Source of the DNA: a virus
Length of the DNA stretch: 26,070 nt
Direction: 5' to 3' (one strand)
Virus record (IMG/VR): IMGVR_UViG_3300026533_000016
Span: 1-26,070 of that record
Below the pieces are notes generated by a model that saw nothing but the letters and a program-made list of their open reading frames with translations, was not told the DNA's origin and did not search any database. Positions 10,016 through 25,931 of the stretch are shown here, piece by piece; position 1 is the first letter of the stretch; each line of letters begins with the position of its first letter. The position numbers and the translations under genes were made by a program.

Positions 10016-10276
10016 ATGTATTATTTCAACAAAACAAACAAAATAGTAACGCCAGAGATGTTCAACAGCATAGTTAAACTAGAAAAGAAAGGTTCTAGAT
10101 ATCTTACTTATTATGGTGGAGCAGAAGTTCAAATTGAAAATGAAGACTTCTTGTTTCAAAATATAGCAGAAGTGGTTCAGTTTATAGAAAACCAGTATGG
10201 TTTTGATACTAAAAGTAAAATATTCAATAATAGAATAGACAAAATCAAAGCTGATTTCCCTGAGTATTTTATTTAG
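10016..10276 (+). CDS. Small tagged protein, 86 aa, ending FPEYFI
   Basis: Begins MYYFNKTNKIVTPE, a short beta-hairpin-like opening (Y-x-F-N-x-x-T-N-K) that recurs in other small genes here (13915, 20054 C-terminus). It then has a region LTYYGGAEVQIENEDFLFQ and a helical stretch, and ends KADFPEYFI. This is the first of at least twelve proteins with the shared C-terminal peptide. Its 3' end overlaps the convergent endonuclease gene by 8 bp. Function is unknown. Confidence 0.8.
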   Translation: MYYFNKTNKIVTPEMFNSIVKLEKKGSRYLTYYGGAEVQIENEDFLFQNIAEVVQFIENQYGFDTKSKIFNNRIDKIKADFPEYFI

Positions 10277-10823
10277 TTCCAGGGTTATAGGGGTCTATTT
10301 CGTACCTCTTAAACATTTCATCCAATCCTTTAGTGAGTTTCTTGCTTTTAGGATAAGGAGGAAAATCTTTTTTCTTTTGGTTTTTTCTTTTAGGAATGAA
10401 CTCTTCACTATTGTATATTTTCTTGCACTTATTATAATTTCTCTTTGATACTTTTGGTTCTTTATGAACTTCTTTAGGATGAATGAACATTTTACCATCC
10501 TGAACATAAGCCCCTTTCTCAAAATAATCAGCCGCGTTTCTTAAAAAATCAGATATATTAAACCCTGGTTCTTTGTCTAATCCTACTCTCTTAATTGAAT
10601 TCTCTAATTTTCCAAGGACAGCATTTACCCTGAACTCCAATGAAATCCTGATTGTTCCTTTGTTAGCACTATATGGTTCACTGTTAGTTTTGTGATTGTG
10701 GTCAAGTGCCATTTTTTCAATAGGGATTTCTTTGTTTAAGACAGGGCATTTTTTATTATTTTCTAACCATATCTTTTCTCTTAATGCTTTTATATCTTTT
10801 TGTTTCATTTCTATGAATTCCAT
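10269..10823 (-). CDS. Endonuclease VII-like resolvase (His-Me finger)
   Basis: A 184-aa protein with the endonuclease VII core KCPVLNKEI...MALDHNHKT (Asp41-His42-Asn43-His44), then IRISLEFRVNAVLGKLEN with Asn67. In T4 gp49 this fold cuts four-way junctions before packaging. The family usually has two CxxC zinc pairs. Here only Cys26 of the first remains (CPVL) and the second pair is absent, so zinc binding is probably lost or altered. The C-terminal half is very basic (KRKNQKKKDFPPYPKSKK) and may bind DNA. RBS AAAGGAG precedes the ATG. It is the only minus-strand gene in the accessory region and shares a palindromic promoter with the gene at 10891. An alternative is an HNH-type endonuclease that is not a resolvase. 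Confidence 0.75.
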   Translation of the reverse strand: MEFIEMKQKDIKALREKIWLENNKKCPVLNKEIPIEKMALDHNHKTNSEPYSANKGTIRISLEFRVNAVLGKLENSIKRVGLDKEPGFNISDFLRNAADYFEKGAYVQDGKMFIHPKEVHKEPKVSKRNYNKCKKIYNSEEFIPKRKNQKKKDFPPYPKSKKLTKGLDEMFKRYEIDPYNPGTK

Positions 10824-10851
10824 TTTTAATCTCCTTTTAAGTTCTAGTACA

Positions 10852-10861
10852 TATAATTATA
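10852..10861. promoter_or_regulatory. Palindromic divergent early-type promoter
   Basis: TATAATTATA is a perfect palindrome and supplies a TATAAT box on each strand (plus 10852-10857, minus 10856-10861). It lies between the divergent genes at 10823 (-) and 10891 (+). The 42 bases up to the start at 10891 are nearly repeated before the gene at 14449. Confidence 0.55.
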
Positions 10862-10890
10862 CTAACAAAAAGATTAATTAAGGAAAGAAA

Positions 10891-11091
10891 ATGAACTTCA
10901 ATAAAATAGAAACAGAGTTAGATAAAATAGAATACTTAGATGGTTCAGTGGTACTTGAAGAGTACAATATGATTATTGATTTTAATGATGGTAGATTTTG
11001 TGTTTGGAGTACAGTTGAAACACCTTACTTCTTAGAAGCAGAACTTAAAACCACAGAAGATGTAATTGAATTCCTAAAGAGAGACCAATAA
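10891..11091 (+). CDS. Small acidic protein, 66 aa, paralogue of 14449
   Basis: Shares with the 14449 gene the pattern L-x-x-I-E-x-x-x-D, then I-x-x-D-x-x-D-G-x-x-C-V-W (DFNDGRFCVW), then TTEDVIEFLKR. It is short and acidic with no membrane segment. The promoter, leader and gene appear to have been duplicated together. Its stop overlaps the next start as TAATG. Function is unknown. Confidence 0.8.
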   Translation: MNFNKIETELDKIEYLDGSVVLEEYNMIIDFNDGRFCVWSTVETPYFLEAELKTTEDVIEFLKRDQ

Positions 11092-11333
11092 TGAATATTG
11101 AAGATTTAAAACTTGAAGTTAGTAAAAAATACGGTTGTAGTGCAACTGATTTATTAGGTTATCATTATGGAGATTCAATAGAACTTTCACTTGAAGTTCC
11201 TGGTAATGAAAAAGTTTTTTGTTTTTATCCTGATAGAAAGTTCAGATACCAAGAAGTTAATTATGCTTCAAGACCTATACTCCGAGCAGATGATTTATAT
11301 AGTTCATTCGATGATTTTTTAAAGGAAAAATAA
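11091..11333 (+). CDS. Hypothetical protein, 80 aa
   Basis: Begins MNIEDLKLEVSKKYGCSATD. The centre SLEVPGNEKVFCFYPDRKFRYQEV looks like paired beta strands, and it ends in an acidic helix DDFLKEK. It is joined to both neighbours by TAATG overlaps, so it is probably translationally coupled. Not recognised. Confidence 0.75.
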   Translation: MNIEDLKLEVSKKYGCSATDLLGYHYGDSIELSLEVPGNEKVFCFYPDRKFRYQEVNYASRPILRADDLYSSFDDFLKEK

Positions 11334-11731
11334 TGTTATTTGATATAAATGTAGTCCCAAAAAAGTACAAAAACAGCCCTAAAGTACAACCCACACCAAA
11401 CACTGAATTAAGATATATAGGCAACAGAAGATGCCATATCAATTCTTTAAGTTATGCTAAGACAGAACCAAAAGTAAAAAAGATTATAGGTTGTCTTCAA
11501 GTGTTTAACTGTGGTTACAGTTGTGTTCACTTCGTGGTTGAAATGCTAAATGGTGATATAGTAGACCCTACTTTTGGTAATATGATTTCTGAATACGATT
11601 ATATCATTGAACTAAAAGAATATAAAATAGAGGAGTTCAAACCAAGAACTGAACTAAATGAACTTAAAAGAGAAATATTTCTTGAACATAATTTCTTTAA
11701 AAGAGCATTTAATTCAGAGGATGATATGTAA
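11333..11731 (+). CDS. Putative Cys-His-Asp hydrolase-like protein, 132 aa
   Basis: Contains RRCHIN (Cys34-His35), IIGCLQVFNCGYSCVHFVVE (His66) and NGDIVDPT (Asp78). The order C-H-x-N, then G-x..., then H, then D-P-T resembles small papain- or transglutaminase-like phage and bacterial proteins with a Cys-His-Asp triad. Extra cysteines at 54, 60 and 64 are unusual and could bind a metal instead. The last 40 residues are charged and helical. It is the last gene of the 10891 operon. The function is a tentative reading of motif order only. Confidence 0.45.
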   Translation: MLFDINVVPKKYKNSPKVQPTPNTELRYIGNRRCHINSLSYAKTEPKVKKIIGCLQVFNCGYSCVHFVVEMLNGDIVDPTFGNMISEYDYIIELKEYKIEEFKPRTELNELKREIFLEHNFFKRAFNSEDDM

Positions 11732-11757
11732 TTAAGTTGTTTTTAAATTAAACAACA

Positions 11758-11767
11758 TATAATTATA
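11758..11767 (+). promoter_or_regulatory. Early-type promoter with TATAATTATA box
   Basis: AACATATAATTATAACAT with the palindromic decamer at 11758-11767, 20 bases before the gene at 11787. It has the same form as at 10852, 14410 and 17545. Confidence 0.55.
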
Positions 11768-11786
11768 ACATAAAAAGGATAAAAAA

Positions 11787-11975
11787 ATGTTCATAACAGT
11801 AAGAAGAAGTACAAAGCAGATAAAAACAGAGCAAGAAGCAAAACAGGAAGTTAAAAACAACAGCTTCGTTAAAATTAAAGATATGATTGAAGAAACTGAA
11901 CTTAAAGATTTTGATATTATGCAGGTAAATGGTGTTTCATACCTTTATATGAATGGCAAAATGAAGGAAATTTAA
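11787..11975 (+). CDS. Hypothetical protein, 62 aa
   Basis: Begins MFITVRRSTKQIKTEQEAKQEV, a strand followed by a charged helix. The end FDIMQVNGVSYLYMNGKMKEI looks like a beta hairpin. It overlaps the next gene as TAATG. Not recognised. Confidence 0.75.
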   Translation: MFITVRRSTKQIKTEQEAKQEVKNNSFVKIKDMIEETELKDFDIMQVNGVSYLYMNGKMKEI

Positions 11976-12403
11976 TGATACTTATAGAAAAAGTAGCTAA
12001 ACATTTAGATTTTACTTATGTTGTCACTTTCAGAACCGGATTAGGAGTTAGGAGTGGTTATGTTGCAGTTCCTGCTTCTTATGAAGTTCAAGATGAAAAA
12101 ATAAAAGTTCATAATGGAATTGATTATATCGGAGGTGGGGATTTCCCCATAATAACAAAAGCAAAATCAACCACTTGGTACGGTTTTGATTGTGGAAGTG
12201 AAAATGATAAAGTAGACTTAAAGAAACTTAATGAACTAATTGAATCAGAAACAATTAATGAAGAGACTAAAAAGCAAATTAGGACTCTTATTGATTTTGA
12301 GGTTGATTATAAATTAAGTTCTTCTAGTAATACAGTTAAAAGTCATGATTTTGTAGAAAAAGAGTGCAAATCAGTAATAGAACAAATTAAGGAACAGCAA
12401 TGA
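11975..12403 (+). CDS. Conserved phage-type protein, 142 aa (GYV...GIDY...GFDC pattern)
   Basis: Contains RTGLGVRSGYVAVPASY, then VHNGIDYIGGGDFP, then WYGFDCGSENDK. This run (a Gly-Tyr-Val strand, a H-x-G-I-x-Y block, and W-x-G-F-D-C followed by an acidic residue) is familiar from uncharacterised proteins widespread in phages. No function is known to me. The C-terminal ~55 residues are helical and charged. It overlaps the next gene by ATGA. Confidence 0.65.
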   Translation: MILIEKVAKHLDFTYVVTFRTGLGVRSGYVAVPASYEVQDEKIKVHNGIDYIGGGDFPIITKAKSTTWYGFDCGSENDKVDLKKLNELIESETINEETKKQIRTLIDFEVDYKLSSSSNTVKSHDFVEKECKSVIEQIKEQQ

Positions 12404-12879
12404 ACCCAGAACCTACCGAACTAAATGAACTTCAGGAAGAAGTTAAACAAATAAAGACTGAAATTAAAACTAGAACTTCAAAACTTCAAGAGGAGTTAAG
12501 AAAGAAGCAGGCAAAAATAAGAGTTCTGAAATTAAAAATTAAAAAGCAAAACAGAATTGATGTTCAAGATAAATCTAAGCATATTATAGATAGGTTTAGA
12601 ATATGGATTGATGCAGATGGCAAAGAAACTTCTGAGTGGATTATTGACAACGGACCTATGAGAGATTATGTTTTTAATAATGTTAATAGATATGAAACTA
12701 TAGATTATGTTGAAGATTCATTACTTGATTGGTTCTATGGAGAATTAGGATGTAGATTAAGTGACCAAGAAGCTGAACTTCAATTCAGCAATTTAAAAAC
12801 TGAAAAACAAGAAGAAATAACAGATATAATGGAAGATGCCATCGAACAAAATATTAAATCGTTTAAATGTGATTGGTAA
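12400..12879 (+). CDS. Coiled-coil hypothetical protein, 159 aa
   Basis: The first ~55 residues are a Lys/Glu-rich heptad-like coiled coil (ELQEEVKQIKTEIKTRTSKL...). A compact C-terminal domain follows with HIIDRFRIWIDADGKETSEW and an acidic end IEQNIKSFKCDW. The start overlaps the preceding stop by ATGA. Not recognised. Confidence 0.75.
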   Translation: MNPEPTELNELQEEVKQIKTEIKTRTSKLQEELRKKQAKIRVLKLKIKKQNRIDVQDKSKHIIDRFRIWIDADGKETSEWIIDNGPMRDYVFNNVNRYETIDYVEDSLLDWFYGELGCRLSDQEAELQFSNLKTEKQEEITDIMEDAIEQNIKSFKCDW

Positions 12880-12904
12880 TAAGTAAATTTAAAAGGAGAA
12901 TAAA

Positions 12905-13075
12905 ATGAAAAAATTAAAAGAAGAGTTAGAGGTAGCAGAAAAAGCAATAGTTGAGTTGAAAAAAAAGTTCAAGAAAATGGTTAATAATTTTAAAAGTGAA
13001 GTGAAAATAAAAGATACTGAAATTAAAGTTATCAAGTTAAAAATCAAAGCAGAGAAAAATAAACAAAAAAATTAA
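12905..13075 (+). CDS. Small Lys-rich coiled-coil peptide, 56 aa
   Basis: A frame of 56 codons, MKKLKEELEVAEKAIVELKK and onward, ending KNKQKN, with RBS AAAAGGAG seven bases upstream. It is almost wholly helical and charged. The segment coding MVNNFKSEVKIKDT (12979-13020) is repeated nearly base for base at 14702-14743, where it heads a chimeric frame. It lies in an operon between the 159-aa and 217-aa genes. Confidence 0.7.
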   Translation: MKKLKEELEVAEKAIVELKKKFKKMVNNFKSEVKIKDTEIKVIKLKIKAEKNKQKN

Positions 13076-13084
13076 AGGACAACA

Positions 13085-13738
13085 ATGAAAATTATAGGTC
13101 TTAGAATCAACAAAGTTCCACTAACAAAATATCTTAAAGCAACTCCATCAGAGTTGGACTATAACGACGAACTAGTTGAAGAGTTTGAGTTCATATATGA
13201 AACAAACAAAGGAATTTATTCAAGAAAGTTCTTCTTAGAACATGGAATGTGTTATTCAGGATATTGCGGTTCAGAGTGGATTCATGAAAACAGCGAAACA
13301 ACGGAGTTCGAGTCGAGAGAAGATGTTGGTCCATTGCATTATGTACCTAAAGGAAACCTTAATTTAGAGTATTTCCATACTGAGTACGATGGTAACGAAT
13401 ACTTCACTTTTTATGAAGGAACTGATTCTTACTATCCTAGTGCTACTTTAGATATTAAATTTGATATGTGGATAGAAACAAAAAGAGCAAAAGCAAAGAA
13501 ACAAGTTTATATTTTTGCAGGTCCTTCAGCAATAGGTAAAAGTTTCATAGCAGGTTCATCTTCATTAAATGTTTATGAAACAGATTCATCTAATGAATTA
13601 ATGATGACCTTAGATAATGACATAGTTGTTCTTGGTAACAAATATCCTTATTTAACTTCTGATATTCAAGATTATTATGATTTAAAATATAAAGGATTAG
13701 TAGAATTAATTCTAGTGGGGTTCAAAAAATATGAATAA
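13085..13738 (+). CDS. P-loop protein with an N-terminal beta-rich domain, 217 aa
   Basis: Residues 1-135 look beta-rich, with many Tyr/Glu (EFEFIYETNKGIYSRKFFLE). A nucleotide-binding loop follows, IFAGPSAIGKSFIAG (Gly146 to Ser153, Lys152), as in small kinases. The stretch after it (VYETDSSNEL, then NDIVVLGNKY) could hold the substrate aspartate of a short kinase fold. Only ~65 residues follow the loop, which is short for a kinase. It overlaps the next gene by 8 nt. The substrate is unknown. Confidence 0.65.
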   Translation: MKIIGLRINKVPLTKYLKATPSELDYNDELVEEFEFIYETNKGIYSRKFFLEHGMCYSGYCGSEWIHENSETTEFESREDVGPLHYVPKGNLNLEYFHTEYDGNEYFTFYEGTDSYYPSATLDIKFDMWIETKRAKAKKQVYIFAGPSAIGKSFIAGSSSLNVYETDSSNELMMTLDNDIVVLGNKYPYLTSDIQDYYDLKYKGLVELILVGFKKYE

Positions 13739-13940
13739 AAAATACATCAAAAAAGCACTTGCTTGGAAATGGAAACTAAAGACTAAAGATATTAAAATTA
13801 AAAGTCTTAAATTCGACACAGAAACCGAGTTCGACCCAGTTGTTTTAATAGAATATAAAACACCAGAGTTCAGTGGTAATTTACTACTTAATCTATATGA
13901 GTTAAAGGCATATTATGAACAAAATTTACTTCTACTATAA
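13731..13940 (+). CDS. Hypothetical basic protein, 69 aa
   Basis: Begins MNKKYIKKALAWKWKLKTKDIKIK, then strands LKFDTETEFDPVVLIEYKTP, ending LKAYYEQNLLLL. It overlaps the upstream gene by 8 nt and the next by 26 nt. Not recognised; no tag. Confidence 0.65.
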   Translation: MNKKYIKKALAWKWKLKTKDIKIKSLKFDTETEFDPVVLIEYKTPEFSGNLLLNLYELKAYYEQNLLLL

Positions 13941-14172
13941 TTCTATTTCAAAGCAGTTATACAAATGCAAAGAATCAAAATCCAAAGTGAATAGTTACAC
14001 TCATAAAGATTTAGGTTCAGGAGTGAACTTCATTGCTAATCCTAAGTTTTTATTTGAAACTGAACTTCAAGGAATGAAGTTCATGATTAAAAAAGAAATA
14101 AAAGACTCTGAGATTCCCGAAGGAATCTCAGTAGAAGAACTCAAACAACTATTTCCTGAGTTCTTCATATGA
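13915..14172 (+). CDS. Small tagged protein, 85 aa, ending FPEFFI
   Basis: Starts MNKIYFYYNSISKQLYKCKE, the recurrent short beta-hairpin-like opening, then VNFIANPKFLFETELQGMKF, then a helix, and ends LKQLFPEFFI. A decayed partial copy of the middle (FIANPELLFE) is present in the chimeric frame at 14702-14824. The stop overlaps the next start as ATATGA. Unknown function. Confidence 0.8.
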   Translation: MNKIYFYYNSISKQLYKCKESKSKVNSYTHKDLGSGVNFIANPKFLFETELQGMKFMIKKEIKDSEIPEGISVEELKQLFPEFFI

Positions 14173-14381
14173 TTTGTATGGATAAGAAATTCTATAGAGA
14201 AAAAGGGGTTGTAGTTGAAGTTCCTCAAAACAACTACGGTTCAAATATAAAAGAAATAAGGTTCAGTATTGAAAATAACAAACTTATCAACACTGAATTA
14301 ATTGTATTCAGGAAATCTGGTGAGTATCCAACTGTAAGAACTAAAGATATATTTAGAGATTATCCTGAGTTCTTTATATAG
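14169..14381 (+). CDS. Small tagged protein, 70 aa, ending YPEFFI
   Basis: Begins MICMDKKFYREKGVVVEVPQ, then GSNIKEIRFSIENNKLINTE, ending DIFRDYPEFFI. The ATG at 14169 overlaps the previous stop. A second ATG at 14178 is possible but has no better ribosome site. It is the last gene before the 14410 promoter. Confidence 0.75.
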   Translation: MICMDKKFYREKGVVVEVPQNNYGSNIKEIRFSIENNKLINTELIVFRKSGEYPTVRTKDIFRDYPEFFI

Positions 14382-14409
14382 TCTTTATTTAATTTTAAGT
14401 TTAATAACA

Positions 14410-14419
14410 TATAATTATA
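14410..14419 (+). promoter_or_regulatory. Early-type promoter with TATAATTATA box
   Basis: ACATATAATTATATTAACA with the palindromic decamer at 14410-14419. It is followed by AAAAGATTAA and an AAGGA ribosome site before the start at 14449. The whole leader is nearly the same as 10849-10890. Confidence 0.6.
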
Positions 14420-14448
14420 TTAACAAAAAGATTAAATAAGGATTTAAA

Positions 14449-14712
14449 ATGTTAAGTTACAAAGATTTAGAAATTGAGTTAGATGCAATAGAAGACACAG
14501 ATGAAGAAGTAAACCTTCAAGAAATAGAATTAAAAGTAGACCACAGAGATGGTTTTTATTGTGTTTGGTTTTGTAAAGCAGACTTTGAACCTGAATTATG
14601 TTTTGAAACTACTAACACTGAAGATATTATAGATTTTATCAAAAGAGAGACGAAAAAAACTTACTTCTATGTAAATTTTAAAACTATGAGAGTTCAGGAA
14701 AATGGTGAATAA
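14449..14712 (+). CDS. Small acidic protein, 87 aa, paralogue of 10891
   Basis: Residues 1-68 match the 10891 product in pattern (LEIELDAIED..., VDHRDGFYCVWF, TEDIIDFIKRE). It then continues with a ~19-residue extension TYFYVNFKTMRVQENGE. The extension resembles the hairpin opening of the 13915 protein (IYFYYNSISKQLYK), as if two genes had been fused. The 40-codon chimeric frame at 14702 overlaps its end. Unknown function. Confidence 0.75.
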   Translation: MLSYKDLEIELDAIEDTDEEVNLQEIELKVDHRDGFYCVWFCKADFEPELCFETTNTEDIIDFIKRETKKTYFYVNFKTMRVQENGE

Positions 14713-14824
14713 TTTTAAAAGTGAAGTGAAAATAAAAGATACTGGTTTAGCATTTATTGCTAATCCCGAGCTTTTATTTGAAAGTAGAAATAAAGCACTG
14801 GAATATTTTTTAAAGGAGGCTTAA
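14702..14824 (+). pseudogene. Chimeric 40-codon frame, probable recombination relic
   Basis: Codes MVNNFKSEVKIKDT, nearly identical at DNA level to 12979-13020 in the 56-aa coiled-coil gene. It then has GLAFIANPELLFESRNKALEYFLKEA, which resembles the middle of the 13915 protein (GVNFIANPKFLFETELQGMKF). It lacks the C-terminal tag of the latter. The start lies inside the end of the 14449 gene and the stop is at 14822-14824, and AAAGGAGG inside its end serves as the ribosome site of the next gene. It could be translated, but the simplest view is a remnant of gene duplication and illegitimate recombination. Confidence 0.55.
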
Positions 14825-14827
14825 AAA

Positions 14828-15385
14828 ATGAAAATTCTAAAAGCGATTCAATTCGCTTCAACAAAACATAAAGGTCAAGTAAGGAGAGTTTCAGAACTCC
14901 CTTATATTACTCATCCGATAGTTGTTATGGAATTAGTGCAGAAATACAAAGGTTCTTCTAAACATATTGAAGAACTGAAGTGTTCAGCACTACTACACGA
15001 TACTCTAGAAGATACAGATACTTCTTACTTTGAACTAGAAAGAGAATTTGGTTCGATGGTTGCTTCTTTGGTGCTTGAACTTTCATCAGATAAAGAAAAA
15101 ATAAAAGAAATAGGAAAACATCCTTATATTAAAGAAAAAATGTTAGGTATGAGTCAGTATGCTTTAACACTTAAATTGCTTGATAGATTTTCCAATATTC
15201 TAGATGAACCAGGAAAGAACTACACTAAGAAAACAGTAGAACTTATGGAATACTTAATGAACAACAGAAAAGATATAACTAAAAGACAGCAGATGATTAT
15301 AGGTCACATAGTAGATTATATTAATGGTTTATCCTTAGATGTGATAGATGCAGAAGCAAAAGAATTTAAAAATGGAAGAAATTAA
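14828..15385 (+). CDS. HD-domain (p)ppGpp hydrolase-like protein (small alarmone hydrolase type)
   Basis: A 185-aa protein with the hydrolase motifs of RelA/SpoT and Mesh1: KHKGQVRR, LPYITHP (His29), ALLHDTLEDT (His57-Asp58, Glu61-Asp62), EFGSMVASLVLELS, and LTLKLLDRFSN (Asp119, Asn123). Length equals that of stand-alone small alarmone hydrolases and there is no synthetase domain. The family removes the 3' pyrophosphate of (p)ppGpp with a Mn ion, so a phage copy could lower the host stringent response; related enzymes act on other nucleotides. A strong ribosome site AAAGGAGG lies at 14812-14819. It is first in the operon running through to 17241, with no promoter visible directly upstream other than 14410. 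Confidence 0.8.
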   Translation: MKILKAIQFASTKHKGQVRRVSELPYITHPIVVMELVQKYKGSSKHIEELKCSALLHDTLEDTDTSYFELEREFGSMVASLVLELSSDKEKIKEIGKHPYIKEKMLGMSQYALTLKLLDRFSNILDEPGKNYTKKTVELMEYLMNNRKDITKRQQMIIGHIVDYINGLSLDVIDAEAKEFKNGRN

Positions 15386-15596
15386 AGCCTACAAATCATC
15401 TTTAACAAACAAAATATTCTTAACCAGAGAAGAAGTTCAAAAAGATGACGAAGAAGTTATTAATTCTGAAATATATGAATCAGTATATAAATCTGATGCA
15501 ACGGGTGAAACTTGTATTGATGTAGAGGACTTATTAACTTTAATGACTAAGTTCCCTAATAAAACAGTTCTTAGACATCTTAAGGAGTACATATGA
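15372..15596 (+). CDS. Small protein, 74 aa, with degenerate tag ending LKEYI
   Basis: Begins MEEIKAYKSSLTNKIFLTRE, like the short T-N-K hairpin opening in neighbouring small genes, then an acidic middle, ending VLRHLKEYI. The last four residues resemble the tag (PEYYI) but the proline is replaced. A longer frame from 15348 exists; 15372 is preferred because it yields the recurrent N-terminal module and a 14-nt overlap with the upstream gene. The stop overlaps the next start as ATATGA. Confidence 0.65.
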   Translation: MEEIKAYKSSLTNKIFLTREEVQKDDEEVINSEIYESVYKSDATGETCIDVEDLLTLMTKFPNKTVLRHLKEYI

Positions 15597-15841
15597 ATAA
15601 AATACTATTTCCTTTAATTCAAGATATAGTTGAGTCTTTTGAGTTTCAAATATCTAATATCAAAACCACAGAGAGATTTGAATATTTAGTAAGAAAGAGA
15701 TTAGAGGAAATAAACAGTTATTTTTCTTATAAAGATTTAAAGATAGAATTCACTCAAGATAAATCTAATATTATAATCGGCAAAACTTTAGGAGCAGAAC
15801 TGAAACAGTTCTATTCCAAAAACCCTGAGTATTATATATGA
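15593..15841 (+). CDS. Small tagged protein, 82 aa, ending NPEYYI
   Basis: Begins MNKILFPLIQDIVESFEFQI and ends IIGKTLGAELKQFYSKNPEYYI. The end (G-K-x-L-x-x-E-L-K-Q-F-Y-S-K-N-P-E) is nearly the same as that of the next gene, so the two are tandem paralogues. Start and stop are both in ATGA overlaps. Predominantly helical. Function unknown. Confidence 0.8.
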   Translation: MNKILFPLIQDIVESFEFQISNIKTTERFEYLVRKRLEEINSYFSYKDLKIEFTQDKSNIIIGKTLGAELKQFYSKNPEYYI

Positions 15842-16059
15842 ACAAAGCAGTGAAGAAATTATTGATACCATTAGTAAACGACATCCTTCAAAGACCTTTA
15901 TCCAACAAAAGTGTCTTAGATTTAATTGAAGAGAGATTAAAAAAGATGAATTTTAAGATGGTAGTTGTTTGGTTTCAAAAAGGTGATTTAATAATGGGTA
16001 AAGGATTAAAGAATGAATTAAAACAGTTCTATTCTAAAAACCCTGAGTTCTACATATGA
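15838..16059 (+). CDS. Small tagged protein, 73 aa, ending NPEFYI
   Basis: Tandem paralogue of the preceding gene: MNKAVKKLLIPLVNDILQRP against MNKILFPLIQDIVESF, and ELKQFYSKNPEFYI at the end, with the middle diverged. ATGA overlaps on both sides. The tag differs from its neighbour by Phe for Tyr. Confidence 0.8.
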   Translation: MNKAVKKLLIPLVNDILQRPLSNKSVLDLIEERLKKMNFKMVVVWFQKGDLIMGKGLKNELKQFYSKNPEFYI

Positions 16060-16304
16060 TAGAAAGTGAATTACTGAAAATATTTTTAATTTCAGTTCTA
16101 GAAGGTTTAACTGAAATCGAATACAAAGGAGATGTTCCACAAGAACAAAAGTTCAGTAATAAAGTCCTTGCTATGTTTTTACTAAAAGAAAAAGGATTTA
16201 AAGCGTTCCATTTAAGTCAAGGTAATGGTTGTTTATTATGCACTCCGTTACTCCATCAAGAATTAGAGATGTATGAAATAAAACATCCTGAATATTTTAT
16301 TTAA
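16056..16304 (+). CDS. Small tagged protein, 82 aa, ending HPEYFI
   Basis: Begins MIESELLKIFLISVLEGLTE, has LLKEKGFKAFHLSQGNGCLL in the middle, and ends QELEMYEIKHPEYFI. The overall layout (helix, strand, G-x-G-x-x-L, helix, tag) follows its two upstream neighbours, so it may be a distant third copy. It is followed 13 nt later by the SPFH gene. Confidence 0.8.
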   Translation: MIESELLKIFLISVLEGLTEIEYKGDVPQEQKFSNKVLAMFLLKEKGFKAFHLSQGNGCLLCTPLLHQELEMYEIKHPEYFI

Positions 16305-17296: not shown

Positions 17297-17527
17297 ATGC
17301 AAGACATAATAATTAAAAGTATTACTAAAGAAAGTAATGAAATATGTAATTCAACCACTGAACTTCAGGTAGGTTTTGAAGTTAGAAATGAATTAATGCA
17401 AAATATAAAATCATATGATTCATTCTTAAAAGCACTAACAAGTAACTATCTTATGACCAACTATAACTTAGACTTAAAAACAGTTGATTCTTTAATAAAA
17501 AATAACTACCCTGAGTTCTTTATATAG
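17297..17527 (+). CDS. Small tagged protein, 76 aa, ending YPEFFI
   Basis: MQDIIIKSITKESNEICNST and onward, mostly helical in the second half (LKALTSNYLMTNYNLDLKTV), ending SLIKNNYPEFFI. Ribosome site AAGGAG lies nine bases upstream. It follows the SPFH hairpin and has no clear promoter of its own, so it may depend on read-through. Unknown function. Confidence 0.75.
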   Translation: MQDIIIKSITKESNEICNSTTELQVGFEVRNELMQNIKSYDSFLKALTSNYLMTNYNLDLKTVDSLIKNNYPEFFI

Positions 17528-17586: not shown

Positions 17587-17841
17587 ATGAGTTATTTGAA
17601 AATAAAAGTAAATAAAACTTATTATTATTTTAAAGTGCAAGATGTACTAAGAAATATAGATAAGTTGATTGAAGTTATTAAAAGTACAAGAGATGCTGAT
17701 TTCACCAACCACATTAATTACTATAATGAAAACAAAGAACGAAGAGGAACTATATCACTAATGTCTTTGCATAAAAACAAAGACTTAATTAAATTCTCCA
17801 AAGAATATAAAGAACTTTACCCTATAAATTCACCAAATTAA
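17587..17841 (+). CDS. Hypothetical protein, 84 aa
   Basis: MSYLKIKVNKTYYYFKVQDV and onward, a beta-type opening, then helices with many Lys and Asn. It ends FSKEYKELYPINSPN. The YP near the end is where the tag would be expected, so this could be a member that lost its tag; the last residues do not otherwise match. It is first in an operon through 19943. Confidence 0.7.
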   Translation: MSYLKIKVNKTYYYFKVQDVLRNIDKLIEVIKSTRDADFTNHINYYNENKERRGTISLMSLHKNKDLIKFSKEYKELYPINSPN

Positions 17842-18656: not shown

Positions 18657-18923
18657 ATGCACTTAGTATTTTTAGATTACCAAGAATCTAAAGGTGAATT
18701 TAAGATTCACGAAGCAAACAAACCAGCAGAATGCCAAACTGAAGCACTTGAATTTTTTCAGAGAGATGAAGAAATAAAACATTTAATGCAGGAATACACT
18801 ATTACCAGAAATATAGAAAAAGAGATGGCTAAGAAAAGAAAAGAGATCTTGATTAATTTAAAATCTAAGTTTAAAGATGATTTGGTTAATTTTGAAGAAG
18901 AACACCCTGAGTTCTTCATATAA
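18657..18923 (+). CDS. Small tagged protein, 88 aa, ending HPEFFI
   Basis: MHLVFLDYQESKGEFKIHEA, a beta-hairpin opening, then a long charged helix (EYTITRNIEKEMAKKRKEIL), ending NFEEEHPEFFI. It is a tandem paralogue of the next gene: the same length, the same MHLVFL start, the same F-E-E-E-H-P-E end and matching helix layout. Ribosome site AAGGA. Confidence 0.8.
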   Translation: MHLVFLDYQESKGEFKIHEANKPAECQTEALEFFQRDEEIKHLMQEYTITRNIEKEMAKKRKEILINLKSKFKDDLVNFEEEHPEFFI

Positions 18924-18925: not shown

Positions 18926-19192
18926 ATGCACTTAGTATTTTTAAACAGTGAAGAACCATCAGGCGGGTTTAATGTTCATAAAAAAGGTGAAACTCTAGAA
19001 TTCAGAGAAGAAGTACTCGAATATTTCCTAAAAGATAAAAAGTACAAAGTTCTAATGGATGAATATTTCTCTATTAAAAATGAAGCGGAGTTAATAGCCT
19101 TAAGAAGGAAAGAAGTACTCCAAGAATTAAAAGATGGATTTAAACTGATTAGTCCTAAATTTGAAGAAGAACACCCTGAATATTTTATTTAA
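18926..19192 (+). CDS. Small tagged protein, 88 aa, ending HPEYFI
   Basis: Tandem paralogue of 18657-18923: MHLVFLNSEEPSGGFNVHKK against MHLVFLDYQESKGEFKIHEA, then a helix with RRKEVLQELKDGF, ending KFEEEHPEYFI. Only two bases separate the copies. Codons of the tag differ at third positions from the upstream copy while its residues are kept, apart from Phe/Tyr exchange. Confidence 0.8.
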   Translation: MHLVFLNSEEPSGGFNVHKKGETLEFREEVLEYFLKDKKYKVLMDEYFSIKNEAELIALRRKEVLQELKDGFKLISPKFEEEHPEYFI

Positions 19193-19432: not shown

Positions 19433-19943
19433 TCTTAACTCGTGTAATGAAGGTTTCCTATCTTTTAATAAAGTAGTTTACCGTGAGTTAAAAACAAGTG
19501 GGTTACTTGAAAGAGAGTATCAACAAATTATATATGAAACTAGAACAGCACTAAATCAAATTATTGAAGAAAATAATATAGATTTAGTAGTTATCCCTCA
19601 GTCCTCAAATAAAATCCTTCGAGATATTTTAGTGGGTGTAGATTACATCGTACTAAAGAAAACCAACCCTGAACTAATGAAGAAAAAAGTTCAGCTTCTA
19701 GATATACAAAAATCACAGAAACAATCATTATTAAAATCACTTGATGCAAATGAAATTAAAATTAGTTCATTTAAAGGAAAACAAAGAGATATCATTAAAG
19801 ACTTCTTGTTTGAAAAAGTAGATGCTGAAAAAGATAATGTTCTTATTTTTGATGATAGTTCATTTAGTTCAAGTACACTAACAGCACTCAATAATTCAGT
19901 AAATGCAAAATCTAAACTATCTTTCACTATCTTTGGTTTTTAA
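19413..19943 (+). CDS. Phosphoribosyltransferase-like protein, 176 aa
   Basis: Contains VLIFDDSSFSSSTLTAL (Asp147-Asp148), which fits the PRPP-binding loop of type I phosphoribosyltransferases: four hydrophobic residues, two acidic, then a Ser/Thr/Gly-rich turn. Upstream, NNIDLVVIPQSSNKILRDIL matches the conserved strand before the substrate loop. The order agrees with small ComF- or PRTase-like proteins, though the protein is short at the C-terminus. It begins MKKYLYNLNSCNEGFLSF, like the Y-x-Y-N opening of the small genes. It might act in nucleotide salvage or in base modification. No promoter upstream; translated from the 17587 operon. Confidence 0.6.
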   Translation: MKKYLYNLNSCNEGFLSFNKVVYRELKTSGLLEREYQQIIYETRTALNQIIEENNIDLVVIPQSSNKILRDILVGVDYIVLKKTNPELMKKKVQLLDIQKSQKQSLLKSLDANEIKISSFKGKQRDIIKDFLFEKVDAEKDNVLIFDDSSFSSSTLTALNNSVNAKSKLSFTIFGF

Positions 19944-20029: not shown

Positions 20030-20053
20030 ACTTTTAACAAAAAAGGATATAAA

Positions 20054-20365: not shown

Positions 20366-20367
20366 AA

Positions 20368-20595: not shown

Positions 20596-21299
20596 AACTA
20601 GATTATATATCTATTTTAGCTGGTGGAAGTTGTAAATTCAACTGTGACTTTTGTGTTGGTAAAGATATAAGGAAAAACATTACACCACATATAAGTCCCA
20701 AGTACAAAGCATTTATCGAATGTTTTGCTGAACAAACAGATTTATTAAGTATTTCAGGGGATACCTCAGACCCTTCCTTTGTAGAAGAAATATGGGAAAT
20801 TCCTGAGATTGCTAAAGAAGTAAATCCTAATATTAAAGTAACAATTCACACTAGAAATATTGAAGCAATTCATAAGACTTTTGTAGATAATTGCTTTGAT
20901 AAGTTCGTTTTTTCTATAGATGAAAATATTACCAAAGAAACACTTCAAATATTAAAGCACTACAAGAAGAAAGTAAGACTTAGTTTTGTTATGACAGAGT
21001 CTAACTATTCTATTGTATATAATTGGTTAGATGAACTTCCTGAAATATTTGATTTTCAGATGACTATTAGACCTGAAGTGCATCAGGTTCAAAATAATAA
21101 AATTTTGTTCGAGAGTACTTTTCGTGATATATCTTCTAATTCAACTATAACAGAATTAAGTTCAGGAGCAGTTCAATTAAACCAAAAACCAAATATTTGG
21201 TATTGGGATTACAGAAAAACAAACGATAAAATAAACACTATGTATCTTTTTAGTTCAGGAGAGATATCTAATAATTGCAAATGGAGCGAAATAATATGA
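20592..21299 (+). CDS. Radical SAM protein, 235 aa
   Basis: The motif CKFNCDFC (Cys14, Cys18, Cys21) is the CxxxCxxC site for a [4Fe-4S] cluster, preceded by ISILAGGS. LSISGDTSDPSFVEE follows as the second conserved strand (S-G-x-x), with VTIHTRN, KFVFSIDE and RLSFVMTE as later barrel strands. Length is short for the family and there is no obvious second cluster. A single Cys remains near the end (SNNCKWSEII). The substrate cannot be read. It is followed by the YidD-like gene through an ATGA overlap. Phages of AT-rich hosts often carry such genes; a role in RNA, peptide or cofactor modification is possible. Confidence 0.85.
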   Translation: MKLDYISILAGGSCKFNCDFCVGKDIRKNITPHISPKYKAFIECFAEQTDLLSISGDTSDPSFVEEIWEIPEIAKEVNPNIKVTIHTRNIEAIHKTFVDNCFDKFVFSIDENITKETLQILKHYKKKVRLSFVMTESNYSIVYNWLDELPEIFDFQMTIRPEVHQVQNNKILFESTFRDISSNSTITELSSGAVQLNQKPNIWYWDYRKTNDKINTMYLFSSGEISNNCKWSEII

Positions 21300-22063
21300 A
21301 AACAAATAAAGTATTAAATATACTAAGATATGCAACAGCAGGTTCACTAATAGTTCTTGCCTCTTACACTACGAATTTGAGTATAGATAAAGGGATTATA
21401 GAGGATAAAGTCAAAACATTGGTTTATGAAAAAACATCTTTGAATTCAACCCTTAAATTCACTGAAGATAATATTAATGTTTCCTTTGGAGCACCTAAAG
21501 ATGGTTTTGTTGGGAAATTAGTTAATCTGGCTTTTAATGATAGACTGAATGAAGGTATTAACTTAAAACCCTCAATAGAAAACAATAATGTATATATGGG
21601 AGTTCCTATTATGGGCTCAGTAAGAAAACTAAAAATTATGTCTTTGGAAGATAGACTTATGTTTCTCGAAGTTCAGAAAACCAAAATAGATGAAGATGGA
21701 ATTGAACTATTGATGAAAACTTCAGGATTAAGCAAATTCTTGATATTTGTAGGTGTTGTTCTGTTGTTACTTAGAGAGATAGGAATTGGGGCTATTAAAT
21801 TCTATAGAAGATTTCTATCAAGTAAGAAATCATATAAGTGTGCGAAAGGGGTGCAGACAGGTGAAACTTGTTCCACAACAGTATTAAATGAATTCCAAGA
21901 TAAAGGATTTTATTCAGGAATGAAATCATATTACAAATCCACTTCTGAGTGCAAAGAACATAATAGAAGATATCATGACCAAGGAAGTGGTTGTTCAGCT
22001 GGTTCAGGTGCCTGCGATGCTAATTCTTGTGATATAGGAGATTGTGATGTTGGTAGTTGTTAG
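21296..22063 (+). CDS. Membrane protein with YidD-like domain and Cys-rich tail
   Basis: A 255-aa protein. A first membrane segment lies at about residues 14-30 (TAGSLIVLASYTTNLSI) and a second at about 147-168 (KFLIFVGVVLLLLREIG). AIKFYRRF...YKCAKGVQTGETCS follows (Cys182, Cys192), then STTVLNEFQDKGFYSGMKSY, matching the YidD pattern: F-Y-x-R-F, K-C, T-C-S, then a G-x-x-x-G helix; a third Cys is at 219. The tail has cysteines at 233, 240, 245, 250 and 255, the last four spaced exactly five apart, each but the last followed by Asp. YidD is linked to membrane protein insertion next to YidC. The ATG at 21296 is chosen since GGAG precedes it and it overlaps the radical SAM stop; a longer frame from 21275 has no ribosome site. 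The tail could bind metal or form disulfides. Confidence 0.65.
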   Translation: MKTNKVLNILRYATAGSLIVLASYTTNLSIDKGIIEDKVKTLVYEKTSLNSTLKFTEDNINVSFGAPKDGFVGKLVNLAFNDRLNEGINLKPSIENNNVYMGVPIMGSVRKLKIMSLEDRLMFLEVQKTKIDEDGIELLMKTSGLSKFLIFVGVVLLLLREIGIGAIKFYRRFLSSKKSYKCAKGVQTGETCSTTVLNEFQDKGFYSGMKSYYKSTSECKEHNRRYHDQGSGCSAGSGACDANSCDIGDCDVGSC

Positions 22064-22295
22064 AACTATCCCTATAAATGAAGATTGGAGGAATAATCTT
22101 CAGTATATTGTAGATAGAATTCCTTTAAACGAACAACAGCATTTCAATAAAACTTTTAAATTGAATGAAAAACTAGTCTTGGAATTAATCAAAAACAACT
22201 TCATTAAAACAAAATCTCTCTACATTGCTTGGAATTCTTTAACCAAGGACTCACAAAATAAAATTAAAGATCTTTATCCTGAATATTATATTTGA
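22047..22295 (+). CDS. Small tagged protein, 82 aa, ending YPEYYI
   Basis: MLVVVRTIPINEDWRNNLQY and onward, helical, with NFIKTKSLYIAWNSLTKDSQ and the end KIKDLYPEYYI. The ATG at 22047 is preferred to GTG at 22044 since GGAG at 22037-22040 is well spaced. The start overlaps the Cys-rich tail of the upstream gene by 17 nt. The stop codon lies within the first bases of the tandem repeat unit. Unknown function. Confidence 0.75.
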   Translation: MLVVVRTIPINEDWRNNLQYIVDRIPLNEQQHFNKTFKLNEKLVLELIKNNFIKTKSLYIAWNSLTKDSQNKIKDLYPEYYI

Positions 22296-22580
22296 TGTTA
22301 CAGACTATTAGTGGTAGTAGCTTAGTTGTTCCTTAACTTAGTATCTACTACTGAATAAAAAGTGTATGAGTACAGTATTACTACTTTATTATCTTCGTTT
22401 ACTTCATAGCTTGATGTTACAGACTATTAGTGGTAGTAGCTTAGTTGTTCCTTAACTTAGTATCTACTACTGAATAAAAAGTGTATGAGTACAGTATTAC
22501 TACTTTTTTATCTTCGTTTACTTCATAGCTTGATGTTACAGACTATTAGTGAGCTTAGTTAATCTACTAATGAATAAAAA
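22292..22580 (+). repeat. Two 119-bp tandem repeats plus a partial third
   Basis: Units are 22292-22410 and 22411-22529, nearly identical. A third, from 22530, keeps the first ~22 bases and then a shortened, diverged part up to about 22580. Each full unit forms a hairpin: GTAGTAG-CTTAGTT against AACTTAG-tat-CTACTAC (22314-22327 with 22335-22351), one mismatch and a 3-nt bulge. It is followed by the ~55 bp element with TAAAAAGTGTATGAGTA (22356-22372 and the matching site in unit 2). That element occurs inverted at 1-57 and 1803-1857. No open frame and no spacer variation, so not a CRISPR array. This fills most of the 453-bp non-coding gap 22296-22748. A replication origin, recombination site or regulatory RNA are candidates. 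Confidence 0.85.
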
Positions 22581-22591
22581 AACAAGAAAGA

Positions 22592-22664
22592 CTGAAGCTC
22601 GTGGACTTGTGTTTTTTGGAGCGTAGCGAACAAAAATAAAGAAGGACGCAGGCACGAAGTGCCT
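22592..22664. other. GC-richer stretch with two small stem-loops
   Basis: The stretch is less AT-rich than its surroundings. It contains TTTTTG / CAAAAA (22613-22618 with 22631-22636) around GGAGCGTAGCGAA, and AGGCAC-gaa-GTGCCT (22650-22655 with 22659-22664). Both have the compact form of interspersed palindromic elements. No gene is visible. It lies between the tandem repeats and the ligase promoter. Confidence 0.5.
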
Positions 22665-22713
22665 TAAGACCTAAGTAAACCTAAGTTTAATAACTAATTA
22701 AGTTAAGATAAAA

Positions 22714-22719
22714 TATAAT
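22714..22719 (+). promoter_or_regulatory. Early-type promoter for the ligase gene
   Basis: AAATATAATG with TATAAT at 22714-22719, followed by AAAAAAGGATA as ribosome site and the start at 22749. An AT-rich run AATTAAGTTAAG lies upstream. Confidence 0.55.
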
Positions 22720-22748
22720 GTTGAACAACTAAAAAAGGATACTAAAAA

Positions 22749-24221
22749 ATGGAAATCATAGAAATCATAAATGAATTGAACGTTACAAATTCATCAAACG
22801 ATAAAATTAAAACATTAACAGAACATAAAGATAATTTAATCCTACAAAGAGTTTTAAAAATGACATACGACAAAGTGAAATTCACTTTTGGTGCAACAAT
22901 GAAAAATGTTAAAGCTGGGACTTCTGAAAACACTAATGACTTAGAATGGGGTTTAAACCAACTAGATAAACTAGCAAACAGAGAAGTAACAGGTAACAAT
23001 GCAGTAATTCTAATTCAAGATACTCTAGAAGCTATGTCTGAAGCAAACAGAGAAGTAATAATTAAAATACTTAATCGTGACCTCCGTATTAATATGGGCA
23101 GAACTAATATTAACAAGGTAATCAAAGGTCTTATTACTAAACCAGTGTATCAAAGATGTGAAGTGGGTCGCGGAGAAGTAAAACTTCCTAATGGAAAAAC
23201 TAAAAAATCAACATTCGATAAAATCAGCTACCCAGCAATAGTAAATCTTAAATCAGATGGAACATTCCGTGCAACAGAAATGGATGCAGAAGTAGTGTTT
23301 TTATCTAGACAAGGAGAAGAGTACAAATACGACTTCGCTAAACATTTAGTCAACGAAACAGGATTCCTTAATGGAGAGATGACTGTTATTCTAGATGATG
23401 ATTTGCTTCAAAAAATACTTCCTAAAATAGAAAAAGCCGACAAAAAGAACAAAACAGCAACAGCTAAAGAGATTAAAGATGGCTATGCTAGAAGCAAAGA
23501 ACAGAATAGAGAGTACATTTTACCTAGGTCATTAGGTAACGGTTTACTGAACTCAGATGACGTACCTCAAGACAATATCATATATGAAGTATGGGATTTA
23601 ATAACTCCTGAAGATATGAACTTAGCTTCACTTAAAGATAAAAATAATCTCCCTAAAGAAGATTATCGAACTAGATTCTTGAAGCTAAAAGCATTAATCC
23701 AAAGAGTAAATCATCCTAGGATAAGACTTATAGAATACAAAGAAGTCCAGAACTTAGATGAAGCTATGCAGTTCACACTTCAAAAAATGGAAGAAGGACT
23801 AGAAGGAGCGGTACTAAAAGATTATAGTGCAAAGTTTAAAGATGGAACTTCAGCACTTCAATTAAAACTCAAACTAGAAGTAGAAGGGGACTTTGTTGTT
23901 ACTGGTTTTATCGAAGGAAAAAAAGGAACTAAGCGTGAACTAACTTTTGGTTCTTTGACTTTTGAATCTTCAGATGGTATAATTAAAGGAAGTACTTCTG
24001 GTTTTAACGATGAGATGCTAGAGATGATTAATACTAACAGAGAATTCTATGTAGGTAAAATTATTGAAGTTCACTTCAACGACCTAACCAAAGGAAGAAA
24101 TAACCTTCACTATGCACTAAGTCATCCTAGATTTAAAACATTCCGAGAAGATAAAACAGAAGCAGATACTTTTGAGCGGGTACTTGATTCAGTTAATATG
24201 GCTAAAGGATTAAAAGGTTAG
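22749..24221 (+). CDS. ATP-dependent DNA ligase (T4 gp30-like)
   Basis: A 490-aa protein. Adenylation motif I is NLKSDGTFRA with Lys168-x-Asp-Gly; then MDAEVVFLSRQGEEY as motif III region; GFLNGEMTV as motif IIIa-IV region; EGLEGAVLKDY as motif IV (EGxV-like); and LQLKLKLEVEGDFVVTGF as motif V. An OB-fold like end (KIIEVHFNDLTKGRNNLHYALSHPRF) follows. The order and length match T4 gp30 (487 aa). The first ~140 residues are an all-helical DNA-binding domain. It seals nicks in phage DNA. It has its own promoter and lies after the tandem repeats. It is followed three bases later by two tagged paralogues. Confidence 0.92.
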   Translation: MEIIEIINELNVTNSSNDKIKTLTEHKDNLILQRVLKMTYDKVKFTFGATMKNVKAGTSENTNDLEWGLNQLDKLANREVTGNNAVILIQDTLEAMSEANREVIIKILNRDLRINMGRTNINKVIKGLITKPVYQRCEVGRGEVKLPNGKTKKSTFDKISYPAIVNLKSDGTFRATEMDAEVVFLSRQGEEYKYDFAKHLVNETGFLNGEMTVILDDDLLQKILPKIEKADKKNKTATAKEIKDGYARSKEQNREYILPRSLGNGLLNSDDVPQDNIIYEVWDLITPEDMNLASLKDKNNLPKEDYRTRFLKLKALIQRVNHPRIRLIEYKEVQNLDEAMQFTLQKMEEGLEGAVLKDYSAKFKDGTSALQLKLKLEVEGDFVVTGFIEGKKGTKRELTFGSLTFESSDGIIKGSTSGFNDEMLEMINTNREFYVGKIIEVHFNDLTKGRNNLHYALSHPRFKTFREDKTEADTFERVLDSVNMAKGLKG

Positions 24222-24224
24222 ATT

Positions 24225-25070
24225 ATGAATTTTTATGTTGAACAAAATGAACTAAAAGGTGATAGGGAAGCAACTCAAGCAATCCTAGAACTAAAAGAAG
24301 AAGCAACTCAAATAGACAAATATGTAGATGACTTCTGCTCAGTAGTTAAAAACAACAGCAAAGCAAACATAAGATTATCTTTAAAATCTTATCCTGGAAG
24401 TGTTGTTATTAAGAAGAAGAAATACAGTAAGGATAGTATTCCTTACTGTATGTACATTGGAGATATGTTAGGAACAGTAGAAGTATCTTACGGGGAACTT
24501 CCTTATAACTGGTTAATCAAAGATGAGCATTACAAGGGTATTTCTTTGTTTGTAGGGGTTTCTAGCCCGAACAAAGGAGGGTTTAAGTCTTTTTATTATT
24601 CAGATTGTGAAATATATACTTCATCACTACCAAAACTAGATAAAAAAATAAACAATGATTTCCTTATTGATATTGAACTTAAGAAAATTCAACTAGAGTT
24701 CGATAATGAAATCAAAGCTAAGAAAACCAAATATATTGAAGATTATAATAAGTTATACAGAGAAAAAATTGAAGTAAGTGATGACATTAATCAGCTTCAG
24801 TCTTTAGAATCCAAATTAACTAAGATGCTTCACCAATGTAGAATTAAAGATAAAAAAGCAAGAAATGCAGTAAAAGATGAAGTCACAAAAGAGTTGTTTT
24901 TTGATATAGAATACAATGATAATCCTTATATAGACAACTTTTTACTCCAAGATTTAAAAACAACCATTGAATTAAAAGAACCACTAAAGAACCATTTAGT
25001 GTTTAACTTAAACAAATACAATCAGGAAATAAAACAATTAGAGTTAGATTATCCTGAGTACCTAATATAA
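24225..25070 (+). CDS. Large tagged protein, 281 aa, ending YPEYLI
   Basis: Begins MNFYVEQNELKGDREATQAI, then KEEATQIDKYVDDFCSVVKN with NNSKANI. A beta-rich part follows with many Tyr and Gly (PYNWLIKDEHYKGISLFVGV). A coiled coil lies at about 150-215, and it ends KQLELDYPEYLI. It is a tandem paralogue of the next gene, with highest similarity in the first 55 residues and the last 12. It is much longer than the other tagged proteins but uses the same N-terminal strand and C-terminal tag layout. It starts three bases after the ligase stop. No known family is apparent. Confidence 0.8.
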   Translation: MNFYVEQNELKGDREATQAILELKEEATQIDKYVDDFCSVVKNNSKANIRLSLKSYPGSVVIKKKKYSKDSIPYCMYIGDMLGTVEVSYGELPYNWLIKDEHYKGISLFVGVSSPNKGGFKSFYYSDCEIYTSSLPKLDKKINNDFLIDIELKKIQLEFDNEIKAKKTKYIEDYNKLYREKIEVSDDINQLQSLESKLTKMLHQCRIKDKKARNAVKDEVTKELFFDIEYNDNPYIDNFLLQDLKTTIELKEPLKNHLVFNLNKYNQEIKQLELDYPEYLI

Positions 25071-25082
25071 AAAAGGAAAATT

Positions 25083-25931
25083 ATGAATTTTTATGTAGAT
25101 TCAAACAGACTAGAAGGTGATGCTGAGGCAATTCAGTATATCAAAAAACTAAAAGAAGAAGCAACTCAAATAGACAAATATATAGATGACTTCTGTTCAG
25201 TAGTTAAAAACAACAGCAAAGCAAATATAACACTAAACCTAGACTATTATCCAACTCATTTTACTATTAAAGAGAAGAAATACTTCAATAACGGTATTTT
25301 AATTCCTATGTTTACTGGTGAGATATCAGGAACAACATCAGCAACAAATGGAATGGTTCCTTACTCCTGGGTTATAAAAGATGGTTTTTGTACTGGTAAT
25401 TCTATCTTTCTATTTGAAGGAGAAACTGGAAGTGGTGGAGGAGTAAATAATTTTTCCTATACGAACTGTGAAATATATACTGATTCTTTACCGAAAATCC
25501 ATCAGAGACTAAAATCAGAACATTTTATTGAAACTGAAATAAAAACTATCCAGAAGAAATTCGATAAAGAAATAGATGCTCTAGAACAAAAATACCATGA
25601 AGATTTTCGTGATTTAAATCTTCAGAAAAAGAATAACAACAAAGAACTTCAAGAACTAAATGCACTAGAACAAAATCTTAAAAAAATGATTAATAAATGC
25701 AAAACTGAAATTAAAAATAAAGAAATGATTTGTGTTCAAGAATCTAAAGAAGAACTGTTTTTCAGTATTAAATACGATGATAATCCTTTACTTAATACTT
25801 CAAAACTACAAAATCTAAAAATCCTCATAAAACCTAAAGAACTTAATAAACCCTCTAAGATTTTTGATTTGTCTAAGTTCAGTTCTGAAGCAAGACAATT
25901 AGAATTAGATTATCCTGAATACCTATTATAA
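25083..25931 (+). CDS. Large tagged protein, 282 aa, ending YPEYLL
   Basis: Paralogue of 24225-25070: MNFYVDSNRLEGDAEAIQYI, KEEATQIDKYIDDFCSVVKN, then NNSKANI, a beta-rich middle with a glycine run (GEGETGSGGGVNN-like) and a coiled coil at about 160-235, ending RQLELDYPEYLL. The last residue is Leu in place of Ile, the only such case. Ribosome site AAAGGA. The middle is more diverged than the ends, which suggests selection on both termini. Confidence 0.8.
   Translation: MNFYVDSNRLEGDAEAIQYIKKLKEEATQIDKYIDDFCSVVKNNSKANITLNLDYYPTHFTIKEKKYFNNGILIPMFTGEISGTTSATNGMVPYSWVIKDGFCTGNSIFLFEGETGSGGGVNNFSYTNCEIYTDSLPKIHQRLKSEHFIETEIKTIQKKFDKEIDALEQKYHEDFRDLNLQKKNNNKELQELNALEQNLKKMINKCKTEIKNKEMICVQESKEELFFSIKYDDNPLLNTSKLQNLKILIKPKELNKPSKIFDLSKFSSEARQLELDYPEYLL

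Follow-up and report, generated by a model that had tools for sequence, protein, structure and literature searches.

The window, which is the whole stretch of 26,070 nucleotides spanning positions 1 to 26,070 of the virus record IMGVR_UViG_3300026533_000016, is a fragment of a T4-like phage in which 12 of the 44 predicted genes encode proteins with a common C-terminal ending. This ending, termed the tag here, follows the pattern PE.[hydrophobic][hydrophobic] and reads [YFHN]-P-E-[YF]-[FYL]-[IL] (Table 1). A preliminary description of this DNA reported twelve such proteins of 70 to 282 residues; all twelve lie where it placed them and the size range is correct. It also called the proteins otherwise different, which mostly holds, but three are paralogues of others in the set and the number of independent bodies is ~9. 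The pairs 18657/18926 and 24225/25083 are recognised with tags removed, and 15593/15838 align with 46-49% identity. Of two further genes proposed to carry degenerate tags, the one ending at 15596 (LKEYI) does not qualify. The other, ending at 17841, has plausibly decayed because its homologue in the related contig G003 (L034:18159-18449, 34% identity) has kept a recognisable tag. Homology searches of the tagged window proteins against Pfam and PHROGs gave nothing convincing.

Table 1. Genes of the window that encode the C-terminal tag or a probable remnant of it (aa, amino acids; AF2, AlphaFold2).
Position	Strand	Length (aa)	C-terminal end	Remarks
10016..10276	+	86	ADFPEYFI	tag codons and stop at 10256-10276
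13915..14172	+	85	QLFPEFFI	stop overlaps next start (ATATGA)
14169..14381	+	70	RDYPEFFI	
15593..15841	+	82	SKNPEYYI	AF2 model alpha/beta
15838..16059	+	73	SKNPEFYI	paralogue of 15593-15841
16056..16304	+	82	IKHPEYFI	
17297..17527	+	76	NNYPEFFI	
17587..17841	+		ELYPINSPN	probably decayed tag; G003 homologue ends KFPEYTL
18657..18923	+	88	EEHPEFFI	orthologue L017_3314 (35% identity) keeps THPEYFL
18926..19192	+	88	EEHPEYFI	paralogue of 18657-18923
22044..22295	+	83	DLYPEYYI	
24225..25070	+	281	LDYPEYLI	
25083..25931	+	282	LDYPEYLL	paralogue of 24225-25070

Shuffling the last 15 residues of the window genes yields a mean of 0.03 such endings and a maximum of 2, against the twelve present. An unbiased scan of C-terminal residue pairs in the window ranks P(-5)E(-4) first, with 12 observed and 0.11 expected. 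At the DNA level, the pattern PE[YF][FY]-[I/L/M]-stop occurs six times on the forward strand of the window, never on the reverse strand and never in a reversed control. The codons for E, Y/F, F and I differ in their third positions and each of the three stop codons is used, which places the selection on the peptide. Pro is the exception, being always encoded by CCT in the window. In relatives CCA, CCC and CCG also occur.

The source record has no close kin among named phages, and searches of these found neither a nucleotide match to the window nor a protein match to a tagged gene. The helicase and ligase of the window are nearest to those of the Vibrio phages phiKT1024, Va1, phiTY18 and pv27 (39% and 46%, respectively), followed by Campylobacter phages of the CP220 group and, for the ligase, Variovorax phage V45v66. 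IMG/VR scans based on the ligase and helicase produced no useful kin. Closer relatives are the IMG/VR contigs L017 (11 kb), G006 (224 kb) and G029 (100 kb), which share an SPFH protein with the window at 64-66% identity; in G029 the gene order also matches. All three bear the tag. G029 and G003 may be two parts of one genome akin to the window phage, because both come from IMGVR_UViG_3300026484 and their gene contents look complementary.

The tag is widespread beyond these relatives, with the wider consensus [YHF]-P-E-x-F-I-COOH. It is carried by 74 of 333 genes in phiKT1024, 48 of 166 in G001 (103 kb), 17 of 124 in G002 (83 kb), 14 of 171 in G003 (97 kb) and 31 of 374 in G006, where shuffled C-termini give 0.04-0.2 such endings. 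The IMG/VR contigs were found by scanning for two tag codings at gene-length spacing, which also recovered smaller tagged contigs. G001 and G002 are N4-like, with portal (63-64%) and capsid (69%) proteins resembling those of Alteromonas phage AD45-P1. Because phiKT1024, the window and its kin belong with the T4-like phages, two unrelated lineages have the tag in common. Two 4 kb contigs binned with a Thermoplasmata metagenome-assembled genome, L083 and L084, have 6 and 8 tagged genes among 10 predicted and are probably misbinned phage DNA. No description of the tag was found in the open-access literature, an absence that is not proof of novelty.

The bodies to which the tag is attached are highly diverse. 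Clustering of 185 tagged proteins after trimming of the tags gave 143 clusters, of which 118 are singletons, and only a handful of 122 scanned proteins match a Pfam or PHROG family. Recognisable bodies include nucleotidyltransferases, DUF285 leucine-rich repeats and a DUF7448 domain. The DUF7448-type homologue in the untagged phages CBB and phiN3 stops at the domain end (...DETKLK and ...DESKLK), whereas in G002 and G001, where the two proteins are assigned to DUF7448 by inference, it extends ~12 residues further (...DDIAKRNPELFI and ...GDLATTRPELLI). This comparison indicates that the tag is a modular addition to a domain with which the untagged homologues terminate. Several tagged proteins of 60-97 amino acids (G001, G002, L083, L084, phiKT1024) have a recurrent cysteine pattern, such as CxxxxCxxCPxxxxC. 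In a nucleotidyltransferase homologue of G004 (L019:2600-3475), YPEYFI is followed by an 18-residue extension, while its orthologues are tagged at the C-terminus.

Conservation within tagged families is concentrated in the tag. Across 31 homologous tagged pairs, identity is 35% in the bodies, 23% at residues -7 to -16 and 81% at the four core tag positions, in agreement with the earlier proposal that the C-terminus is selected as a unit. That proposal would have been refuted by orthologues in related phages lacking the tag, but the L017 orthologue retains it and G006 and G029 are also tagged. The full core is present in 182 genes. Replacement of Pro with Glu kept is seen in 12 cases, where 4 are expected; replacement of Glu with Pro kept is seen in 2, where 1.65 are expected, and is thus not in excess. 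Position -2 varies (A, C, I, V, S, T) in 28 genes. By these counts Glu(-4) is the least change-tolerant residue of the tag.

Structures were predicted for two of the tagged proteins. The best of five AF2 models of the protein encoded at 15593-15841 (mean predicted local distance difference test score, pLDDT, 82; others 61-68) is alpha/beta with the tag following the last helix, and a fold search with it returned no match with E below 0.001. The model of a G002 protein is mostly beta, a predicted beta-barrel, with a pLDDT of 52-55 in the C-terminal stretch. Because these two predicted folds differ, the tag is, on the models, not the end of one domain.

Expression timing was assessed through the late promoter TATAAATA, whose identity is taken from T4. 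In phiKT1024 it lies just upstream of 31-34 genes, largely structural, but of none of the 74 tagged genes (Fisher p 1.5e-4); it is likewise not just upstream of either gene of the machine described below. When phiKT1024, the window, G003 and G006 are pooled, one of 75 promoter-proximal genes is tagged versus 131 of 922 overall. The test sees the first gene behind each promoter, and genes inside late operons are not excluded. The structural cluster of phiKT1024 (about 46-78 kb) has no tagged genes. Judged from promoter placement, the tagged proteins are mostly non-late.

The occurrence of the tag follows that of a two-subunit machine, composed of a MoxR-type AAA+ ATPase and a DUF2201_N metallopeptidase fused to a DUF2201 vWA domain. 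Both DUF2201 models exceed the Pfam cut-off in UOK16726, the phiKT1024 peptidase, and DUF2201_N does so in 7 records. The zincin HExxH and the DxSxS...T...D of the metal ion-dependent adhesion site (MIDAS) are invariant in six aligned peptidases. PhiKT1024 has few genes in common with G001-G003, and among families detected by BLAST only the two subunits are common to phiKT1024 and all of G001, G002, G003 and G006. These four contigs are those of at least 80 kb that were found by the tag alone, and each contains both subunits. Tagged genes adjoin machine subunits in L062, L067, L069, L074, L077 and phiKT1024, and a tagged nucleotidyltransferase gene lies beside MoxR in phiKT1024, G002, L067 and L068.

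The association also holds when approached from the machine. A close peptidase is rare: 50,697 phage records yielded 11 with one, of which six are Vibrio phages and five are AD45 records. A tag-blind scan of IMG/VR with the peptidase alignment identified 22 loci. All newly found records with the peptidase and a phiKT1024-type MoxR are tagged (G010, G015, G016, G017, G018, G019 and AD45-P1), with 1-3 tagged genes in small or sparse ones and up to 9 or more elsewhere. Va1, with a peptidase 98% identical to that of phiKT1024, gives 46 and 62 tag hits with two patterns. Records with only distant forms of the machine (G022-G026) have no tags, nor does G020; G021 gives two hits to the tag DNA pattern in 306 kb. 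Control level was found without the close pair in CP220, V45v66, KVP40, T4, RaK2, PBS1, S6, LPJP1, CBB, phiN3, Vibrio 2.275.O, D474, G020 and G022-G024, the named phages among them giving 0-1 hits per record and pattern, as does the reversed-pattern control. Comparing ten records with the close pair to nineteen without gives a nominal Fisher p of about 5e-7, uncorrected for kinship. RaK2 and Moorella phage MTATph1 also have MoxR-vWA genes; no other C-terminal motif of comparable strength was seen in the first 50 kb of RaK2 or the 49 kb of MTATph1.

The best explanation is that the ending [YHF]-P-E-x-[FLY]-[IVL]-COOH serves as a short linear motif for docking, present on many small, mostly non-late proteins of unrelated folds. 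Among the options listed in the preliminary description, docking to one common phage partner fits best. The candidate reader is the MoxR and metallopeptidase-vWA machine, an assignment that is correlative and judged moderately probable. MoxR rings with vWA partners remodel proteins (PMC9976466, PMC7159879), and an acidic group of the target protein serves as ligand to the MIDAS metal of the vWA partner (PMC9976466). Docking on the vWA domain is proposed because an invariant, change-intolerant Glu suits a MIDAS site. The MIDAS of the peptidase would bind Glu(-4), with the hydrophobic residues at -2 and -1 and the terminal carboxylate adding affinity. The MoxR ring would then remodel the bound protein and the peptidase may cut it. 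The tagged proteins could be interchangeable adaptors, in which each variable body would hold a target protein, probably of the host, that the common tail then brings to the machine. That most of them are adaptors rather than substrates is favoured only tentatively, because orphan, fast-evolving bodies are tagged and recognisable replication enzymes are not. As a whole, it is conceivable but still doubtful that two unrelated phage lineages run a modular system of targeted degradation or remodelling, with dozens of fast-evolving host-binding adaptors, one docking tail and a phage MoxR-vWA-metalloprotease.

Several points weigh against docking on this machine. Its subunits are absent from the 26 kb window, and their presence in the window phage is deduced from relatives, namely G006 and, through G029, G003. 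G029 itself, a tagged 100 kb fragment near the window, has no peptidase, although it is possibly another part of the G003 genome. Because of kinship among the records, few independent events can be counted, with two lineages identified. The small number of tags in AD45-P1 and G017, 2-3 each, is a difficulty for the idea that the machine requires many tagged partners. A role of Glu(-4) as ligand of the vWA metal site is possible by analogy, and the adaptor role rests on the diversity of the bodies.

The tag may alternatively be a degron, with the tagged proteins being early substrates that the MoxR/peptidase machine, or a ClpP-like protease, clears on schedule. The association of tag and machine, the conserved peptidase active site and the near absence of tagged genes directly behind late promoters would be equally expected here. 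However, the tag is found on 20-29% of genes, mostly orphan accessory ones, while recognisable replication enzymes lack it, and orthologous bodies keep it despite 65% divergence; a degron is therefore considered rather unlikely, though a serious competitor. A related proposal is that the metallopeptidase cuts the conserved peptide off variable precursors, freeing active bodies or a peptide signal, for which the pairing of a zincin peptidase with variable FxSxx-COOH proteins (PMC7159879) is a conceptual parallel. Such processing is improbable, because conservation extends through the C-terminal Ile/Val/Leu to the stop codon and the sequences show no obvious cleavage site. The reader could instead be a conserved host protein, since many of the small proteins made early by phages have host targets. 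Yet the Vibrio phages KVP40, 2.275.O and D474, which have no close machine, are untagged while phiKT1024 and Va1 are tagged; tag presence therefore follows phage genotype and not host genus, leaving a host reader a small chance.

The two remaining alternatives are the least likely. In T4-type phages, short terminal signals direct internal proteins into the head, and the tag could similarly mark proteins for packaging and ejection. Late expression would then be expected, but the promoter counts in phiKT1024 and in the four pooled T4-like records, together with the untagged structural cluster, point the other way. Even with operon-internal genes not excluded, packaging has little to recommend it. 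The notion that the tag forms the terminal helix of a small domain common to these proteins, or is a DNA or RNA element at gene ends, draws on the frequent ATATGA stop-start overlap and on the paralogy of some bodies. It is contradicted by the 118 singletons among 185 bodies, by the two differing predicted folds, by the variation of third codon positions and stop codons, and by the DUF7448 domain ending before the tag in untagged phages. This explanation is hardly credible.

A few further features of these genomes are worth recording. About eight phiKT1024 proteins, including the DNA polymerase and Dam methylase, bear a second C-terminal motif, -[DE][DE]W or similar, with examples in L009-L012 ending at record positions 19861, 31678, 151225 and 181772; it is possibly a sliding-clamp binding tail. 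The clamp was considered as a reader of the tag by analogy with T4 and is not favoured, because the DNA polymerase and a few others end in -DDW/-EEW instead. A tagged G003 protein (L035:19155-19523) contains MADILSQDEINALL, which we take to resemble the N-terminal CheY-binding peptide of FliM. This single case, judged by eye, hints at host mimicry, and the protein gave no significant match to PDB sequences. In the window, a group I intron at 3510-3827 on the minus strand (Rfam RF00028, 84 bits) splits a minus-strand tail sheath gene into a piece at 3798-4022 and a part with the open reading frame (ORF) 2218-3024. Similar sequences (around aatactcatacacttttt) at 1-60 and 1803-1860 flank ORF 174-1802, which encodes 542 amino acids without a match in named phages and could, with its flanks, be an inserted element. 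In G003 (L018:758-4393), a series of ORFs is interpreted from sequence as Hsp20, DnaK, GrpE and DnaJ.

The machine and the tag each have partial counterparts among known systems. Group 2.2 jumbo phages encode a MoxR ATPase and a vWA protein with an N-terminal metallopeptidase, for which roles in virion assembly and structural protein processing have been proposed (Iyer et al. 2021, PMC7824862). The subunits are of the same kinds, with DUF2201_N and DUF2201 recognised here, but the part of that account drawn on here mentions no C-terminal tag, whereas the present pair tracks tagged, mostly non-late proteins. A virion-assembly role does not fit these proteins because late promoters are nearly absent directly before their genes. 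The distant forms of the machine in RaK2, PBS1 and S6 are not accompanied by the tag. RavA-ViaA, NorQ-NorD and CbbQ-CbbO likewise combine a MoxR ring with a vWA protein, the MIDAS of which presumably binds an acidic residue on the target (PMC9976466). They differ in acting on one or two host complexes. To our knowledge, no proteome-wide tag accompanies these systems.

Among terminal signals, the ssrA-type degrons read by ClpXP are also short, portable C-terminal peptides, and the tag is similarly thought to be read by an AAA+ machine. It differs in being encoded in the genes, in sequence (PExFI, with no ALAA-like apolar tail added by transfer-messenger RNA) and in the AAA+ clade. The FxSxx-COOH/zincin systems share a conserved C-terminal peptide on variable small proteins, together with MoxR-vWA and a zincin (PMC7159879). 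Their motif is different from PExFI, and here many unrelated proteins per genome carry the tag.

Small early phage proteins are mostly orphans, and nothing hints at what they do. A tail on a fifth to a quarter of the genes in some phages offers a handle by which whole sets of them can be found, counted and pulled down, and it points to one specific machine. If the tagged proteins are indeed adaptors, they would parallel, in phages, the interchangeable substrate receptors that share one docking motif, and portable recruitment peptides and host-binding domains could be drawn from them.

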